A stretch of DNA of 64,000 bases, from contig NZ_JBBOUU010000001.1 in NCBI RefSeq assembly GCF_038006205.1, positions 3,040,001 through 3,104,000 on the forward strand, written 5' to 3'. Shown here one piece after another: positions 126-53,045 of this stretch. Position numbers and translations under genes: made by a program. Within the stretch, counting starts at the first letter, position 1, and each line of letters begins with the position of its first letter. The notes under the pieces are model-generated. The model was not told the DNA's origin and did no database searches. It saw nothing but the letters and a program-made list of their open reading frames with translations. The stretch comes from Solibacillus sp. FSL R7-0668 (GTDB lineage Bacteria > Bacillota > Bacilli > Bacillales_A > Planococcaceae).

Positions 126-327
126 TTTTGAGATGAAAAAAAAACTTCAAACAGCTTTTCTGTTCTTAGTGTAGATTATTTTGACAATTTGCGCAATAAT
201 TTTCTCGTAAATTTATATAAAATTATTATTCTTAAATTTTTTTGATTGTTTGTCTATGTTTCAAAGTTCAATTACTTTTCGTAATCGACTGGTTTCGTGT
301 ACAATGGCATAAAGGAGCGTGAATATA

Positions 328-645
328 ATGCAAGAAATTACAACAATTGAACAGTTTACTGAATTAACAACTACAGACAAAGCGGTTATCGTGAAGTTTT
401 TCGCTGGCTGGTGCCCGGACTGCACACGTATGGATATGTTTATCGATCCAATTATTGAAGAATACAACCAATATGACTGGTACTCACTAAACCGTGATAA
501 CTTCCCCGATTTAGCAGAGAAATATCAAGTCATGGGTATTCCATCATTATTAATCTTCAAAAACGGTGAAAAATTAGCTCACTTACATAGTGCTAATGCA
601 AAATCACCTGCACAAGTTGAAGAATTCTTAAACGCACAAGCGTAA
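328..645 (+). CDS. Thioredoxin-family protein (YtpP-like)
   Basis: A 105-residue single-domain thioredoxin fold. It has the redox motif WCPDC (CxxC) near residue 28, and a GIPSLLIF segment containing the cis-proline that normally faces the active site. Length and motif match the Bacillus YtpP group of small cytoplasmic thioredoxin-like proteins; its partner is unknown. The ATG at 328 is chosen because AAAGGAG (311-317) lies 10 bp upstream; an in-frame GTG at 319 is only 1 bp from that site. It is monocistronic, ending at a strong terminator. Oxidoreductase activity is inferred from the CxxC motif. Confidence 0.85.
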   Translation: MQEITTIEQFTELTTTDKAVIVKFFAGWCPDCTRMDMFIDPIIEEYNQYDWYSLNRDNFPDLAEKYQVMGIPSLLIFKNGEKLAHLHSANAKSPAQVEEFLNAQA

Positions 646-735: not shown

Positions 736-809
736 TTTTGAGTTGGTGGTCTGGGACAATTCCCTTCCCGTTTTATCTGTGCGTTGTTGAGATAGTGATG
801 TGCAGGGTT

Positions 810-929
810 ATTTGCGACTTTAGAATTTTATTTGCGATTTCGCGTGGATATTTGCGATTTTCACAGTTTATTTGCGAAATTTTTGAGTTATTTGCGATTT
901 TTAAAATATATTTGCGAACTCCCAAAAAC
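810..929. repeat. 20-bp-periodic ATTTGCGA repeat element, copy 1 (6 units)
   Basis: The core ATTTGCGA occurs at 810, 830, 850, 870, 890 and 910: six copies at exactly 20-bp spacing. The bases after the core run C, T, T, A, T, A (GAC, GAT, GAT, GAA, GAT, GAA). The last unit ends in GAACTCCCAAAAAC. A second element at 52328-52427 repeats the same unit order with one unit fewer. A 20-bp period is not a multiple of 3, so it does not encode a repeated peptide. It lies between the 3' ends of convergent genes. Function unknown; possibly a protein-binding array or a dispersed repeat family. Confidence 0.85.
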
Positions 930-968
930 CCCCACCATTTCCCCAGTAAAATCATATACAACCCCAGC

Positions 969-2396
969 TTACGGTAAATCCTCAAACTTCACAGATGTCG
1001 TATATTCAATCCCCTTTTCATCCTGCAAGATGCGTGGTGCGGTGCGTGTTAATGTCCAGCTAAAGCCGTCATCCCCGGTAATGAAATACTGATCCCCCTC
1101 TGTTTCGATTTGGATATTGGTATAGGTTTTTTCGACTAATTCGAATGTATTTGTTCTCCCCCTATAATAAATCGTATCCCCATCAAAAATATACATTAGT
1201 TGATCATTATAACGGTTCGTTAACGACATATTCTTCAAATGCTCCGGCTTGGCTTCGAGCAGATTGATTGTGCGGTAATCCGTTAGCCTATCAGCCGAGG
1301 TAAATTCATAATACGTAGAAATTTGTCTCAAATCTTCAGTATACTTCACAAGTAAATGCTGACCAATTGCTTCCGTATGATAAAATGCCGAGGAATTAGT
1401 AAGATCTGCATGCTCAAAAACATTGGCATACATCAGCTGCCCTTGCTCAATGGTAATGACTTTTGGCTCGTCACCACCAAATAAAAAGGTTGGCGCCTCA
1501 TGATAATCTGTCGAATACAGCGTCACTCCTGGATATTTAAGCTGCCCTGTTACCAGTTGATACTCTCCTGTTTGATTATGATAAATAAAGGTTGTTTCGA
1601 GCGTTTTACTATCAATCAAATAATATCGGCCATCTCCGCCAAAATTAAATTGTGTTGGTTCATTACTGACAATATTCAAATCAAAGCGCTCGCCACTTGG
1701 TGTTTCAAATACTCGCCAAATGCCAGCGTCTGTCGGAATTTGATAGAGGGTATGGTCATTATTCGTTTGGATTTCCGCTTCACGCAGATCAAGTTCTAAA
1801 TTTAAAATGATGGGTGCATTTGGCGCTACTCGATATTCAAAGACAAACTCTTTCGGAAGCGCTACATCCTCTACATAACGCTCCAGCGGCTGTAACATAT
1901 CAAGCTCGATTTTTTCAGTTTTTTTATGAATAACGAGCGTATCTAAAAATGCTGCTCCATTTAAATCTGGGAGCTTCATAACAATGGTCATTTGCTCCTT
2001 CTCGTCAATTGTTCGCATCACCTGAAGTTGCTTCGTTAAATCATAATTATTATAGCGAGAAAGCACATCTTCACTATCCATGACGGTCATTTTAGTTAAC
2101 TCTTCACTGTCCCTTTGTAATATTGCACTATAAAATTCTGAAACAAGGCGCTGGTATTTTTCAGTTAAATTGGGTGCTTCAACATCCACAGCAGATTGTT
2201 CGTTTTGCTGTGGTGTAAAATACAGCACCGCCCCAATCGCAAGCATCATGACGACTACAAGTGCTGGCTGCAAAAATGGGATCGGCTTTTTACGACGGTT
2301 TTTGCCATGCAACACCTTTTGCACAAAGGCTTCATTCATCATTGGTTCCTTACTAATCGTTTCATCAATAGCTTTTTTCATTTGAGAACTCGTCAT
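969..2396 (-). CDS. Putative membrane-anchored anti-sigma factor
   Basis: A 475-residue protein overlapping the 3' end of the ECF sigma gene by 32 bp, the usual arrangement for a cognate anti-sigma factor. It has a short charged cytoplasmic N-terminus of about 45 residues, one hydrophobic segment (about residues 45-65, LQPALVVVMMLAIGAVLYF), and a large extracytoplasmic part of about 400 residues rich in beta-type sequence, which I do not recognise. The ATG at 2396 has AGGAGG 8 bp upstream; a GTG at 2405 overlaps that site. Expected role: hold the sigma factor at the membrane until a surface signal arrives. This role comes from gene order and topology, not from a named domain. Confidence 0.65.
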   Translation of the reverse strand: MTSSQMKKAIDETISKEPMMNEAFVQKVLHGKNRRKKPIPFLQPALVVVMMLAIGAVLYFTPQQNEQSAVDVEAPNLTEKYQRLVSEFYSAILQRDSEELTKMTVMDSEDVLSRYNNYDLTKQLQVMRTIDEKEQMTIVMKLPDLNGAAFLDTLVIHKKTEKIELDMLQPLERYVEDVALPKEFVFEYRVAPNAPIILNLELDLREAEIQTNNDHTLYQIPTDAGIWRVFETPSGERFDLNIVSNEPTQFNFGGDGRYYLIDSKTLETTFIYHNQTGEYQLVTGQLKYPGVTLYSTDYHEAPTFLFGGDEPKVITIEQGQLMYANVFEHADLTNSSAFYHTEAIGQHLLVKYTEDLRQISTYYEFTSADRLTDYRTINLLEAKPEHLKNMSLTNRYNDQLMYIFDGDTIYYRGRTNTFELVEKTYTNIQIETEGDQYFITGDDGFSWTLTRTAPRILQDEKGIEYTTSVKFEDLP

Positions 2397-2889
2397 CCCA
2401 CGCACCTCCTTCTAGCGTTTGCTTTAGTTTTTCTCGTCCGCGCCTTAGCCTTGTTTTCACCGTATTATCTGAACAAGCGAGCAAGTCCGCAATTTCTTCA
2501 ATTTTTAGCTCTTTATAATAGTATAAAATAATGGCTTCTCGGTACTTCATCGGCAAATTGAGCACAGCCTCACCTAATAAACGATTTTCGGTTAAAACGA
2601 GTACTTCCTGCTCTGCAGATTTCGTTCCTTTAAAAATTTGCTGAATTTTTTCTATAAGAATGGTATTTTTGTAGCTCCAACTGCGTAAGTAATCATAGCT
2701 ACGATTTATGGTCATGCGGAATAAATACGTACGGTAACTGGCTTCTCCACGAAATTTTTCCTGCTGCTCAAAGGCTTTCAGTAGCACATCCTGTACGATA
2801 TCTTCTGCCGCCTGTTGATTTTTCACATATGTATAAGCAAGGCGCAGTAACTCTTCACCATGTGTTCGAATCAATTGCTCTAGCTGCAT
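2365..2889 (-). CDS. ECF-type RNA polymerase sigma factor
   Basis: A 174-residue sigma-70 family protein with only regions 2 and 4. Region 2 spans about residues 5-75 (AYTYVKNQQAAEDIVQDVLLKAF, then the YLFRMTINRSYDYLR helix). Region 4 spans about residues 112-162 (LPMKYREAIILYYYKELKIEEIADLL and a CSDNTVKTRLRRGREKL recognition helix). Both are typical of group 4 (ECF) sigmas such as SigM, SigV and SigW. Start ATG 2889 follows AAAGGTGG. Upstream is a good ECF promoter (TGAAAC-17-CGTCTA), suggesting autoregulation. The next gene, overlapping, is the likely anti-sigma. Exact subgroup not assigned. Confidence 0.92.
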   Translation of the reverse strand: MQLEQLIRTHGEELLRLAYTYVKNQQAAEDIVQDVLLKAFEQQEKFRGEASYRTYLFRMTINRSYDYLRSWSYKNTILIEKIQQIFKGTKSAEQEVLVLTENRLLGEAVLNLPMKYREAIILYYYKELKIEEIADLLACSDNTVKTRLRRGREKLKQTLEGGAWDDEFSNEKSY

Positions 2890-44820: not shown

Positions 44821-44966
44821 ATATTGAAATAGTTTTTTCTTTTAAAGTGGCAAATTATATAATGCTTTCCTGACCTAGAAGTAGCTTTTCTTAAAAAAAT
44901 TATTGCAATTTCAGATTTTTATCATTTTTAAAAGTTACAGTATTGTCTATGAAAGGATTGATGACT

Positions 44967-45632
44967 ATGAAGAATATAAAAATCAGTATGCTTGTCGCGA
45001 TGCTATTGGCAGGGACAGTCACAGGAGGAGTAATTGTCCAAGCTGATGACGACAATGAACATTGGTATGAAAAATATGATAACGATGATTATTATGATGA
45101 CCACGATGATGATGACTATGATGACTATGACGACGATGATAACGACTATGACGATTACTACTACGATGATGATGCATTCAATAATATGAATGGCGTCATA
45201 TACGATAAAGGTACTTGGAATATTTGGTCAAGAAATTTAGTAATGGAAAAAGAGGAGTTGCCGTTCAACACCTCTCAATTAGTCAAAATGAAAGTAGCAA
45301 ATACGAATAAAGAATTGAATTTTTATGTGATCCCGAAAAATAGAGAGTTCTTTGTTCCAGGAAAAGAGGTAGCTCAGCTTTTAGGAGCAGAGGCAACCTT
45401 CTATAAAGCAAGCAAAATATTAGATATTCAATATCAAGAAAATGAACTAATTTTCCGCTCCGATTCAAATGTTATTTTTGATAGTAACGTTAAAACACCG
45501 CTACCTGCATTTTCATTCTCTTTAAATGAAGATCTATATGTGCCGATTAGTGTCATTACAAATGGCTTAGGCTATATCGTTGAGTGGCAAGAGAACGACC
45601 AAGTATTTTTATGTCTACCTTTAATCAATTAG
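44967..45632 (+). CDS. Secreted Asp/Tyr-rich protein with copper-amine-oxidase-N-like domain
   Basis: 221 residues: signal peptide (1-26, cleavage after VQA), then an extremely acidic Asp/Tyr tract (27-69, about two thirds D), then a domain from about 105 to 218 resembling the copper amine oxidase N-terminal (stalk) fold: NFYVIPKNREFFVPGKEVAQLLGAE and LNEDLYVPISVITNGLGY. The acidic tract could bind metal ions. ATG 44967 has AAAGGA 9 bp upstream. It is the first gene of a four-gene operon; a TATAAT at 44858-44863 may be its -10. Confidence 0.75.
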   Translation: MKNIKISMLVAMLLAGTVTGGVIVQADDDNEHWYEKYDNDDYYDDHDDDDYDDYDDDDNDYDDYYYDDDAFNNMNGVIYDKGTWNIWSRNLVMEKEELPFNTSQLVKMKVANTNKELNFYVIPKNREFFVPGKEVAQLLGAEATFYKASKILDIQYQENELIFRSDSNVIFDSNVKTPLPAFSFSLNEDLYVPISVITNGLGYIVEWQENDQVFLCLPLIN

Positions 45633-51745: not shown

Positions 51746-52174
51746 TTGAAATCGTTTAAAAAAGAATTACCAGAACAATATGAAGCATTAAAGAAACAGG
51801 CGAATTATACATCAAGCTGGCGCGAGCGTTTAGCCGCAGTTGAGACGCTATCTGCTTATCAACACGAAAAGGTGATTGATTTATTAACTCACCGCATGAA
51901 AAATGATACAGTATACAACGTACAAACAGCCGCTTACAATGCGCTCGTAGCATTTGGCGAAAATGTAGATAAGCCTAAACCCGCACGTTTTGATATCATT
52001 AAAGGCACGGACAAGATTTTCTTACGTGTGAAAAAAAGTTTGCCTAAGGAGCATAGCGTGGCAGATTTTGCTGACAAGCTAAAACGTATGCGCTTAGATG
52101 TATTTGATGCCTATGAAGGCGATAAAGGTGAGCAATTTATGACTTGGCTTGAGGAACGTTGGGCGAAGCTGTAA
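51746..52174 (+). CDS. HEAT-repeat domain protein
   Basis: A 142-residue all-helical protein. Residues about 22-75 contain a HEAT-like pair of helices (WRERLAAVETLSAYQHEKVIDLLTHRM, then NVQTAAYNALVAFGE), a protein-interaction fold; the C-terminal part is a separate helical region (SVADFADKLKRMRLDVFDAYEG). Start TTG 51746 with AGAGGTG 7 bp upstream. No signal peptide. Function unknown. Confidence 0.72.
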   Translation: MKSFKKELPEQYEALKKQANYTSSWRERLAAVETLSAYQHEKVIDLLTHRMKNDTVYNVQTAAYNALVAFGENVDKPKPARFDIIKGTDKIFLRVKKSLPKEHSVADFADKLKRMRLDVFDAYEGDKGEQFMTWLEERWAKL

Positions 52175-52327: not shown

Positions 52328-52427
52328 ATTTGCGACTTTTTGATTTTATTTGCGATTTCCAGTTTATATTTGCGAAATATTGAAGATATTTGCGATTTTC
52401 AACATATATTTGCGAACCCCCAAAAAT
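52328..52427. repeat. 20-bp-periodic ATTTGCGA repeat element, copy 2 (5 units)
   Basis: The core ATTTGCGA occurs at 52328, 52348, 52368, 52388 and 52408, again exactly 20 bp apart. Bases after the core run GAC, GAT, GAA, GAT, GAA, the same order as copy 1 (810-929) minus one GAT unit. First units agree at 18 of 20 positions and the final units share GAAC-CCCAAAAA. It lies between a terminator and the PepSY gene. No open frame of interest. The rest of the 346-bp gap holds only the terminator and the PepSY leader. Confidence 0.85.
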
Positions 52428-52520
52428 ATCCTTTTTCTCATCAAATTTTAATAATTTTTACAGTATTCTCTCATTTTCTTCGTTTACACTAGTAGTATCA
52501 ACAAAAGGAGGCTATTCAAA

Positions 52521-53045
52521 ATGAAAAAAGTAATTTTAATTCCGGCATTGGCTGGGGCACTTGCACTTGGTAGTATTGCGCTAACTGACAATCCAGTCGA
52601 AGCAGCTCCTAAAGGATTCATCACAATGGAAAAGGCGAGAACGATTGCAGTCAAGGCAGTTGGCGGAAATGTGACAGATATTGAATTAAAGCGCAAATAT
52701 ACGGGTGGTATTTATGAGGTGGAGGTTCAATCAAAGGGCTTTGAATTTGATCTAATCATTGATGCAACATCAGGAAAAATCCTAAAGAAGGAAAAAGACG
52801 ACCTAGATAATTTAGATGACGATGATGTAATTGCATTTAATAAAAAATTTATCACACCGGCAGCTGCTGAAAAAATTGCTCTGAAAAAAGCAAATGGCAC
52901 AGTCGTAAAAGTAGCCTTAGAAAATGAAAATAATCGCGTAATTTATGAAATCGAGGTCGAAAATGGCGCCTATGAGTATGAATTTGACATCGACGCGCTA
53001 TCTGGGAAAATTCTCAAATTTGAAAAAGATGAAATGGATGATTAA
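52521..53045 (+). CDS. Secreted protein with two PepSY domains
   Basis: 174 residues: signal peptide (about 1-29, MKKVILIPALAGALALGSIA, cleavage near VEAA), then two PepSY modules (about 33-90 and 110-170). Each has the pattern xxMEKARTIAVKAVGG ... YEVEVQSKGFEFDLIIDATSGKIL. An acidic linker (KDDLDNLDDDD) separates them. PepSY domains often regulate or shield peptidases or bind metals at the cell surface. Start ATG 52521 follows AAAAGGAGG. Confidence 0.9.
   Translation: MKKVILIPALAGALALGSIALTDNPVEAAPKGFITMEKARTIAVKAVGGNVTDIELKRKYTGGIYEVEVQSKGFEFDLIIDATSGKILKKEKDDLDNLDDDDVIAFNKKFITPAAAEKIALKKANGTVVKVALENENNRVIYEIEVENGAYEYEFDIDALSGKILKFEKDEMDD

Follow-up and report, generated by a model that had tools for sequence, protein, structure and literature searches.

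Intergenic arrays of short DNA cores at a pitch of about two helical turns in Solibacillus and other Bacilli: candidate docking strips for putative oligomerizing proteins

What could a row of six identical 8-bp words, set at exactly 20-bp steps between two genes, be doing in a bacterial chromosome? The question is raised by a 64-kb stretch of the genome of Solibacillus sp. FSL R7-0668 (hereafter, the window and the host genome, respectively), near the beginning of which the core ATTTGCGA starts on the + strand at positions 810, 830, 850, 870, 890, and 910, exactly as a sequence-only reading of this DNA had stated. Intergenic repeats of bacteria are mostly unexplained, and no description of the ATTTGCGA array element was found in the literature searched, which lay mostly outside subscription journals; the papers that hold the letters of ATTTGCGA looked, among the matches listed, unrelated by title.

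Two arrays in the window

In array 1 (810..917, + strand), the six cores are separated by five unlike 12-bp fillers, and the observation that the fillers vary without any reading-frame logic proved correct as well, a 20-bp step fitting no frame. The probability of five further in-phase copies of the core arising at this site by chance is ∼2e-22. The array is preceded by a loosely conserved left end, ATGTGCAGGGTT (798..809, + strand; judged by eye from a list of 27 left flanks), and is followed by the right tail ACTCCCAAAAACCCCCACCATTTC (918..941, + strand), which corresponds to AATMCCCAAAAATCCCCAT in the column profile of the 27 genomic clusters described below. Array 2 (52328..52415, + strand) consists of five ATTTGCGA cores at exact 20-bp steps and carries a tail of the same type, ACCCCCAAAAATATCCTT (52416..52433, + strand). 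Both arrays were called independently by Tandem Repeats Finder with a period of 20. The entire window contains 15 copies of ATTTGCGA (6 and 5 in the arrays and 4 single ones) versus 6.07 expected (standard deviation, 2.44), a number that was reached in none of 100 shuffles of the window.

Array 1 lies, outside of any coding region, between a thioredoxin-like gene (319..645, + strand; identified with Pfam) and a convergent 478-aa open reading frame (ORF) without a Pfam match (969..2405, − strand). The initial description of the site as convergent and intergenic is therefore accurate for array 1 but fails as a general rule, since array 2 is found in a co-directional pair, between a HEAT-repeat ORF (51746..52174, + strand) and a PepSY-domain ORF (52521..53045, + strand), both recognized by Pfam. 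The segment from 645 to 969 that holds array 1 coincides with a synteny break: in the host, the thioredoxin-like gene is followed by the 478-aa ORF and an ORF for an ECF sigma factor, and the gene order downstream of this gene is unlike that of the host in those congeners whose downstream side was compared. Elsewhere in the window, a degenerate coding repeat with periods of 9, 15, and 30 was noticed at 45076-45174, within the ORF at 44943-45632.

Copies and anatomy of the element in the host genome

Exact pairs of cores, ATTTGCGA-N12-ATTTGCGA, occur 84 times in the 4.23-Mb host genome (48 on the forward and 36 on the reverse strand), where the reversed control pattern has no match, and the exact cores form 27 intergenic clusters. 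A relaxed search that allowed up to 2 mismatches returned 119 pairs, of which the same 84 are exact, versus 6 pairs in the reversed control, and therefore the core signal is no artifact of the exact search alone; this search added at least 6 degenerate loci, bringing the number of element copies to at least 33. The sequence-only reading had made its case dependent on the existence of further copies and on the array not being part of a translated gene, and both points came out in its favor: with genes and coding status assigned by simple ORF rules rather than by a gene finder, none of the 27 clusters is located inside a large ORF. Five of them are overlapped only by ORFs of 81 to 102 aa, and the end of a 195-aa ORF extends 6 bp into one more. 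A coding repeat, gene-borne and with a period divisible by 3, is ruled out by the period of 20 and the intergenic position of the clusters. The 33 copies on G000:C1 of the host genome (27 exact and 6 degenerate ones) are slightly clustered, the most crowded stretches of 100 and 160 kb containing 6 and 7 copies, respectively (p of about 0.03 to 0.04 versus random placement).

A full copy of the element runs from a loose left end through up to seven cores, separated by fillers of two alternating kinds, to the right tail. In many copies, though not in all, the first core has a TGTGC-like word ahead of it, at a variable distance (27 left flanks, inspected by eye), and column conservation at the left end is weak across the 27 clusters. 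The right tail is better defined: its positions 1 to 10 after the core are conserved at 67 to 89%, except for one at 44%, and the positions beyond are at 52 to 70%, except for two at 70 to 85%. Among the 106 unit steps, 98 are of 20 bp, 7 of 21 bp, and 1 of 19 bp. Divergence of the core from its consensus is 2.16% per base in the 133 in-phase units of the host genome, a lower bound, as the in-phase chains included only cores with no more than 2 mismatches; the relaxed genome search, with its 84 exact pairs out of 119, agrees with low core divergence. Fillers of equal rank, counted from the right end, differ pairwise by 36 to 51% on average. T occupies positions 11 and 20 in almost all of the 98 fillers (92% and 98%, respectively), which extends the constrained stretch beyond the 8-bp core; positions 9 and 13 to 17 are the most variable. 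Autocorrelation of T within the arrays is 1.13 to 1.26 at lags of 9 to 11 and 1.57 at a lag of 20, as phased T-tracts would give. In a test of position-to-position association around the core, the strong signals came from the alternating filler types, AA...GAT and YT...TTT, with no clear stem among them.

The 27 clusters are found in every type of gene context, with 8 between divergent genes, 5 between convergent ones, and 14 in co-directional pairs (8 running with the array and 6 against it); array position is independent of the orientation of the neighboring genes. The flanking ORFs (34 of the 53 were scanned with Pfam, along with two other ORFs of the window) have unrelated functions with no common theme, ranging from arginyl-tRNA synthetase and thiamin pyrophosphokinase to an S-layer amidase and Amj. 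No partner DNA-binding protein was found, and the par domain is absent among these 34 scanned ORFs.

These data bear directly on the level at which the element acts. If it acted as RNA, the transcribed array would repeat a protein- or sRNA-binding word every ∼20 nt, and self-pairing of UUUGCGA is possible by way of two G-U pairs. The core strand does fold slightly better than its shuffles (mean z of −1.21, with a standard error of 0.19, versus −0.59, with a standard error of 0.19, for the complement), but the clusters occupy all gene-orientation contexts, the window has no Rfam covariance-model match above the gathering score, and the promoter-like and terminator-like sites around array 1 are near the chance level (2 versus 1.2 and 1 versus 0.5, respectively). 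Neither is there an obvious RNA-related reason for a pitch of 20 to 21 bp across the different families described below. An RNA-level element is accordingly regarded as unlikely; RNA structure as such was rejected, the folding being weak, with at most a small excess over the shuffles.

Relatives and other core families

The exact pair was detected in 4 of the 61 genomes searched, including the host, and a triple TTTGCGA pattern was detected in 4 of the 261 family genomes. For the latter pattern, the reversed control had 34 matches in genome G236 and one match each in two other genomes; the matches in G236 arise because this genome has arrays of the same pitch with a different core, TTTATGAGCG. 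A generic 20-bp pattern that is not tied to a particular core was found in 19 of the 261 genomes, representing 6 of 19 genera, and its four-unit version was found in 12 of the 261. Together with the named Bacillaceae listed below, these arrays of the same pitch confirm the expectation that relatives should carry them too. The reversed control of the generic pattern matched in a single genome, G027 (26 matches versus 4 for the pattern itself). A slightly stricter version with a 19-bp pitch, used as a control, was absent from all 261 genomes, and its own control had 2 matches in one genome.

In a wider collection, in which each of 84,980 prokaryote species is represented by one genome, a triple ATTTGCGA pattern was detected in 52 stretches. 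The carriers include Metasolibacillus, Bacillus infantis, Gottfriedia luciferensis, Halobacillus locisalis, Robertmurraya korlensis, Cytobacillus eiseniae, and heterocystous cyanobacteria. In the last group (Tolypothrix, Mojavia, and Nostoc), the 20-bp arrays are of the TTTGCGAGTCAGAAACTTAA type (L113 1286-1412, L110 5197-5343, and L103 5643-5689) and perhaps represent convergence in pitch. In Bacillus infantis (L102 2092-2358), a ATTTGCGA array is closely followed by an array of a similar unit, TTATTAGCAACTTT, a layout that looks like a transition between families.

A single genome can contain several core families, often built of TTTAY and 5 to 6 family-specific bases. The host genus has a second family, sharing a genome with the ATTTGCGA arrays, in which TTTATGCTCG alternates with TTTGTGATCG-like units at 20 to 21 bp (L198-L204 within G000:C1:2172000-2295000; L035 7602-7682; L036 3254-3324; L044 2665-2742; L081 12319-12427). 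The host genome also has a third one with the core ACGTGCG and a period of 21 (L045 10171-10284), the core of which is also present in the congener G015.

No match to the element of array 1 was found in 72,556 plasmids or 50,697 phages, and the generic pattern had a single match in viral contigs (L154 944-1017), where the repeat finder reported 3.4 copies of the 20-bp unit GCGTTATATCCCGGTTATGA with a 97% match. An origin in phages or plasmids was rejected on these grounds.

A survey of repeat periods

The periods of tandem arrays were surveyed with Tandem Repeats Finder in 14 blocks (1.86 Mb) from 13 genomes. Of the 50 noncoding arrays, 48 have a period of 20, 21, or double that value (20 in 18 arrays, 21 in 19, 40 in 7, 41 in 2, and 42 in 2), the remaining 2 having a period of 11, and this preference is shared by many unrelated cores; the 48 are not all independent, as genomes G032 and G115 share several orthologous arrays. 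With the arrays of searched-for cores set aside, 32 arrays (two of them orthologous) are left with periods of 20 to 21 or double, along with the 2 of period 11. The 24 arrays scored as coding, some of which (e.g., 20/21-bp arrays in G242, G032, and G115) may be noncoding, show a different spread of periods: 9 (2 arrays), 11 (1), 12 (6), 15 (3), 21 (5), 30 (1), 40 to 42 (4), 45 (1), and 48 (1), so that 15 of the 24 have periods other than 21 or 40 to 42 and 9 have one of these. A 600-kb control generated with an order-3 Markov model yielded one array, of period 12.

The array-rich blocks come from five genomes, G115, G032, G242, G000, and G251; the blocks of the first four, as well as the window, had been picked for holding a known array. 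No noncoding 20/21-bp arrays were found in the blocks of G012, G253, G199, G002, G010, G015, and G114, and only one was found in that of G254. The densest block, G242:C1:500001-700000 (L175-L184), contains 17 noncoding arrays in 200 kb, with periods of 20, 21, or double, from about seven families.

The peak at two helical turns is the strongest new fact of this analysis, and the ATTTGCGA arrays are one family of a wider class with a two-turn pitch. The match to the helix is not perfect: 20 bp correspond to 1.9, not 2.0, turns of relaxed B-DNA, and hence sites 20 bp apart drift by ∼34 degrees per unit, only the 21-bp families being exactly in phase.

Turnover and strand bias

Genomes G032 and G115 are collinear, their long aligned blocks being 94 to 99% (mostly 97 to 99%) identical, and their orthologous arrays differ in length: two arrays of 40-bp units have 13.7 versus 12.4 and 26.5 versus 15.4 copies, and an array of 20-bp units has about 42 versus 19, whereas a 21-bp array is nearly unchanged (4.7 versus 4.6 copies). 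One intergenic site is occupied by a 21-bp TTTATTCCACG array in G115 and by a 20-bp ATTTGCG array in G032, each with its own terminator-like hairpin; at another, five 21-bp units in G115 correspond to two units kept in G032 beside other sequence. The Metasolibacillus arrays thus lengthen and shorten like ordinary minisatellites.

The cores also tend to lie on one strand. With the lagging strand taken as the one with negative GC skew, the cores lie on it in 15 of 15 Metasolibacillus loci (some of these are orthologous, and one has a skew near zero) and in 32 of 38 arrays of other Bacilli (p = 2.4e-5; six of the 38 share one contig and are not all independent), of which Bacillus infantis contributes 3 of 6. 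These 38 were scored out of the 52 stretches found in the species collection; the others were 4 cyanobacterial stretches, 1 from Prevotellaceae, 1 goat-gut record, and 8 stretches of Metasolibacillus or the metagenome-assembled genome SS36439 that were located at contig ends or near others. Similarly, the T-rich strand is the lagging one for 31 of 42 arrays in the survey blocks (p = 0.003). In the host genome, where the replichore boundary was placed by local GC skew, the figures are 20 of 27 exact clusters and 23 of 33 with the degenerate copies included (p = 0.02 to 0.035), and within its 200-kb block only 4 of 8 arrays follow the trend, as do 2 of 4 in G251; polarity is reversed at the locus of G015 and at two of the four loci in G236. 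Strict replication polarity was therefore discarded as a rule, given the 20 of 27 in the host and the exceptions in G015, G236, and G251: the preference of the cores for the lagging strand is a lineage-dependent bias, weak in the host.

A fast-evolving minisatellite process is the main rival to a protein-docking function. The arrays could be neutral or selfish minisatellites that arise and grow by slippage linked to replication or repair, with a preferred step of two turns, in which the cores would be alike since the arrays are young or regularly homogenized. Copy numbers that differ between genomes of mostly 97 to 99% identity, different families at one site, patchy presence, and a lagging-strand preference of the kind that a replication-linked process could give are all consistent with such an origin. 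However, slippage would homogenize fillers along with cores, and adjoining units within one array of the host genome have the same core but unlike fillers; besides, in the absence of selection, many periods would be expected instead of nearly only 20 and 21. An origin as neutral or selfish minisatellites is a serious possibility, though less likely than not.

An insertion and the question of mobility

Between thiN and rpmB, in the thiN-spoVM-rpmB region, the host has ∼200 extra bases (a size judged by eye), including an array that is flanked by two terminator-like hairpins. No array was seen there in any of 15 congeners when the stretch was compared by eye; the spacer is whole in 13 of the 15, and other sequence follows in G015 and G002. 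At this locus at least, the element is an insertion in the host genome. The same spacer contains other, unrelated extra sequences in several congeners (L093-L096 and L101), some of them resembling dispersed repeats. G015, the best-matching congener at the two tested loci, has the exact pair only twice, in one array with a similar tail. At an intergenic site beside the syntenic S-layer amidase gene, arrays are apparently present both in the host (L034 5904-5952) and in the Metasolibacillus genome G115 (L076 5389-5837), in the orientation opposite to that of the gene.

Dispersed intergenic copies with a conserved right end, a strand bias, and an insertion not seen in congeners would suit a REP/RAYT- or MITE-like nonautonomous mobile element that depends for its movement on a Y1 single-strand transposase, with the arrays as putative binding sites of this enzyme. 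Y1 proteins that are presumably RAYT-like, judging from their motifs (RGNNR or similar), are indeed encoded in Metasolibacillus and in genomes of the genus g3. Yet the host, despite its 27 clusters, has only two Y1 matches, both IS200-like and neither RAYT-like; G012 has a RAYT-like gene without 20/21-bp arrays in 200 kb; and 20/40-bp arrays lie within ∼5 kb at just 1 of 18 RAYT-like loci (L206). The flanks offer only GGGGAT/ATCCCC as short terminal inverted repeats, with nothing clear beyond them, and no target duplication was seen in the flanks; at thiN-rpmB, the boundaries are too diverged for one to be read. Mobility of this kind is considered very unlikely, and a link to RAYT was dropped for want of any association between the arrays and RAYT-like genes. 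These genes (L205-L222), mostly one or two per genome, were noted in Metasolibacillus, the genus g3, and two congeners, in most cases with no repeats nearby; a second RAYT-like locus, L219, has 42-bp repeats that look coding.

Reverse transcriptases that make tandem repeats are known, and the arrays could in principle have been produced by reverse transcription of a repeated RNA template. The distribution of the reverse-transcriptase family PF00078 largely refutes this link: there is no match in G242, the genome densest in arrays among those surveyed (98% complete), or in G236 (92% complete), and there are 12 to 17 matches in congeners free of the pattern, such as G004, G006, and G008. Such an origin is most improbable.

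Comparison with known systems

CRISPR arrays have identical repeats of ∼23 bp or more and unrelated spacers of ∼26 bp or more, and are ruled out by the 8-bp cores and the patterned 12-bp fillers. REP/BIME elements with RAYT, short tandem repeats of cyanobacteria, and DNA uptake sequences are all dispersed short intergenic words, from which the present arrays differ in counts and in the fixed tandem pitch; the palindromic anatomy of REP was not seen in them, nor was an association with RAYT.

The nearest described kind is the STAR elements of Staphylococcus, which the cited text characterizes as direct repeats interspersed between genes, with a short constant core, locus-specific spacers, and variable copy number, abundant in some species, scarce in close relatives, and of unknown function (PMC3532100). 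The STAR consensus given there is a GC-rich 14-bp word, T(G/A/T)TGTTG(G/T)GGCCC(C/A), in repeats that are at least 40 bp apart (PMC3532100). As far as that description goes, the present arrays share the intergenic location, the constant core, and the locus-specific spacers, variation in copy number having been compared in Metasolibacillus only; they differ in the 20/21-bp pitch, in the many unrelated and mostly T-rich cores, and in the genera that carry them. Their units consist of ATTTGCGA and a T-rich filler, in which no GC-rich word like that of the cited consensus is seen by eye.

The nearest mechanism is that of the ParR-bound centromeres. In parC of plasmid pSK41, the repeat length is 20 bp and the DNA is wrapped. 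The parC centromere of type II partition systems is described as an uninterrupted series of tandem repeats to which a ribbon-helix-helix protein binds (PMC5016525). It is a single site beside a plasmid par operon, whereas the present arrays occupy tens of chromosomal sites. Tandem repeats of the archaeal Borgs, according to the cited sections, are intergenic (one example being of 20 nt), fast evolving, and strand biased in composition, but also perfect, often located in ORFs (43 to 65%), and with almost no sequence shared by two repeats of the same genome (PMC9879509). The likeness, on that account, is in the intergenic tandem repeats, the fast evolution, and the strand-biased composition; the difference is that the present arrays have imperfect units, a core common to many loci, and an almost constant pitch.

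A possible role as docking arrays

The sequence-only reading had proposed a DNA- or RNA-level function, for example through a protein binding one face of the helix about every two turns. Its DNA side fits best, as indicated by the freedom of orientation, the 48 of 50 noncoding arrays at 20, 21, or double, the constrained core and pitch, and the weak folding. The protein is putative, as is its binding. Since a genome can contain several core families at once, a single protein is unlikely to serve all arrays; several proteins, or a lax one, would be needed.

The interpretation preferred here, to which about an even chance is given, is that the arrays are helically phased DNA docking arrays for putative oligomerizing proteins. 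The element would be a short dispersed intergenic unit that works through a series of DNA sites spaced by approximately two helical turns, and each family could serve as the docking strip of its own putative sequence-specific DNA-binding protein, molecules of which would bind side by side, the two-turn pitch being needed for their cooperative contact. The T-rich tracts, ∼10 bp apart, could aid bending or wrapping. Side-by-side binding of such a putative protein would account for the constant core and pitch, the drifting fillers, the indifference to gene direction, and the single pitch of unrelated cores, and rapid turnover of the putative protein and its sites would account for the pattern of close relatives that are either rich in arrays or nearly devoid of them. 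The host might benefit through nucleoid organization, a replication or transcription boundary, or a decoy against an invading replicon; alternatively, the arrays might be parasitic on the putative protein.

A broader and more tentative generalization is that there exists a general, previously undescribed chromosomal class of intergenic arrays in which putative protein sites keep strictly to a two-turn spacing (20 or 21 bp), with cores that turn over between species and with a rapidly diverging array-forming protein for each family, in an arms-race-like or selfish relationship. If true, it would explain how one species can have at least a hundred arrays (by extrapolation) and a close relative almost none.

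As a physical signature, the fixed two-turn pitch of unrelated families directs attention to the face of the helix as the level of function, with no need to name the factor, and an array can be used as bait in a direct experiment. Should the cause prove to be mutational, the two-turn step would tell something new about the origin of bacterial minisatellites. The distribution of the arrays, scattered in some members of the Bacillus group and absent in close relatives of these, suggests docking strips for a putative DNA-binding protein. If a protein does polymerize on them, they would represent a new way of marking bacterial chromosomes, for which the presence and absence of arrays among relatives would provide a natural experiment.
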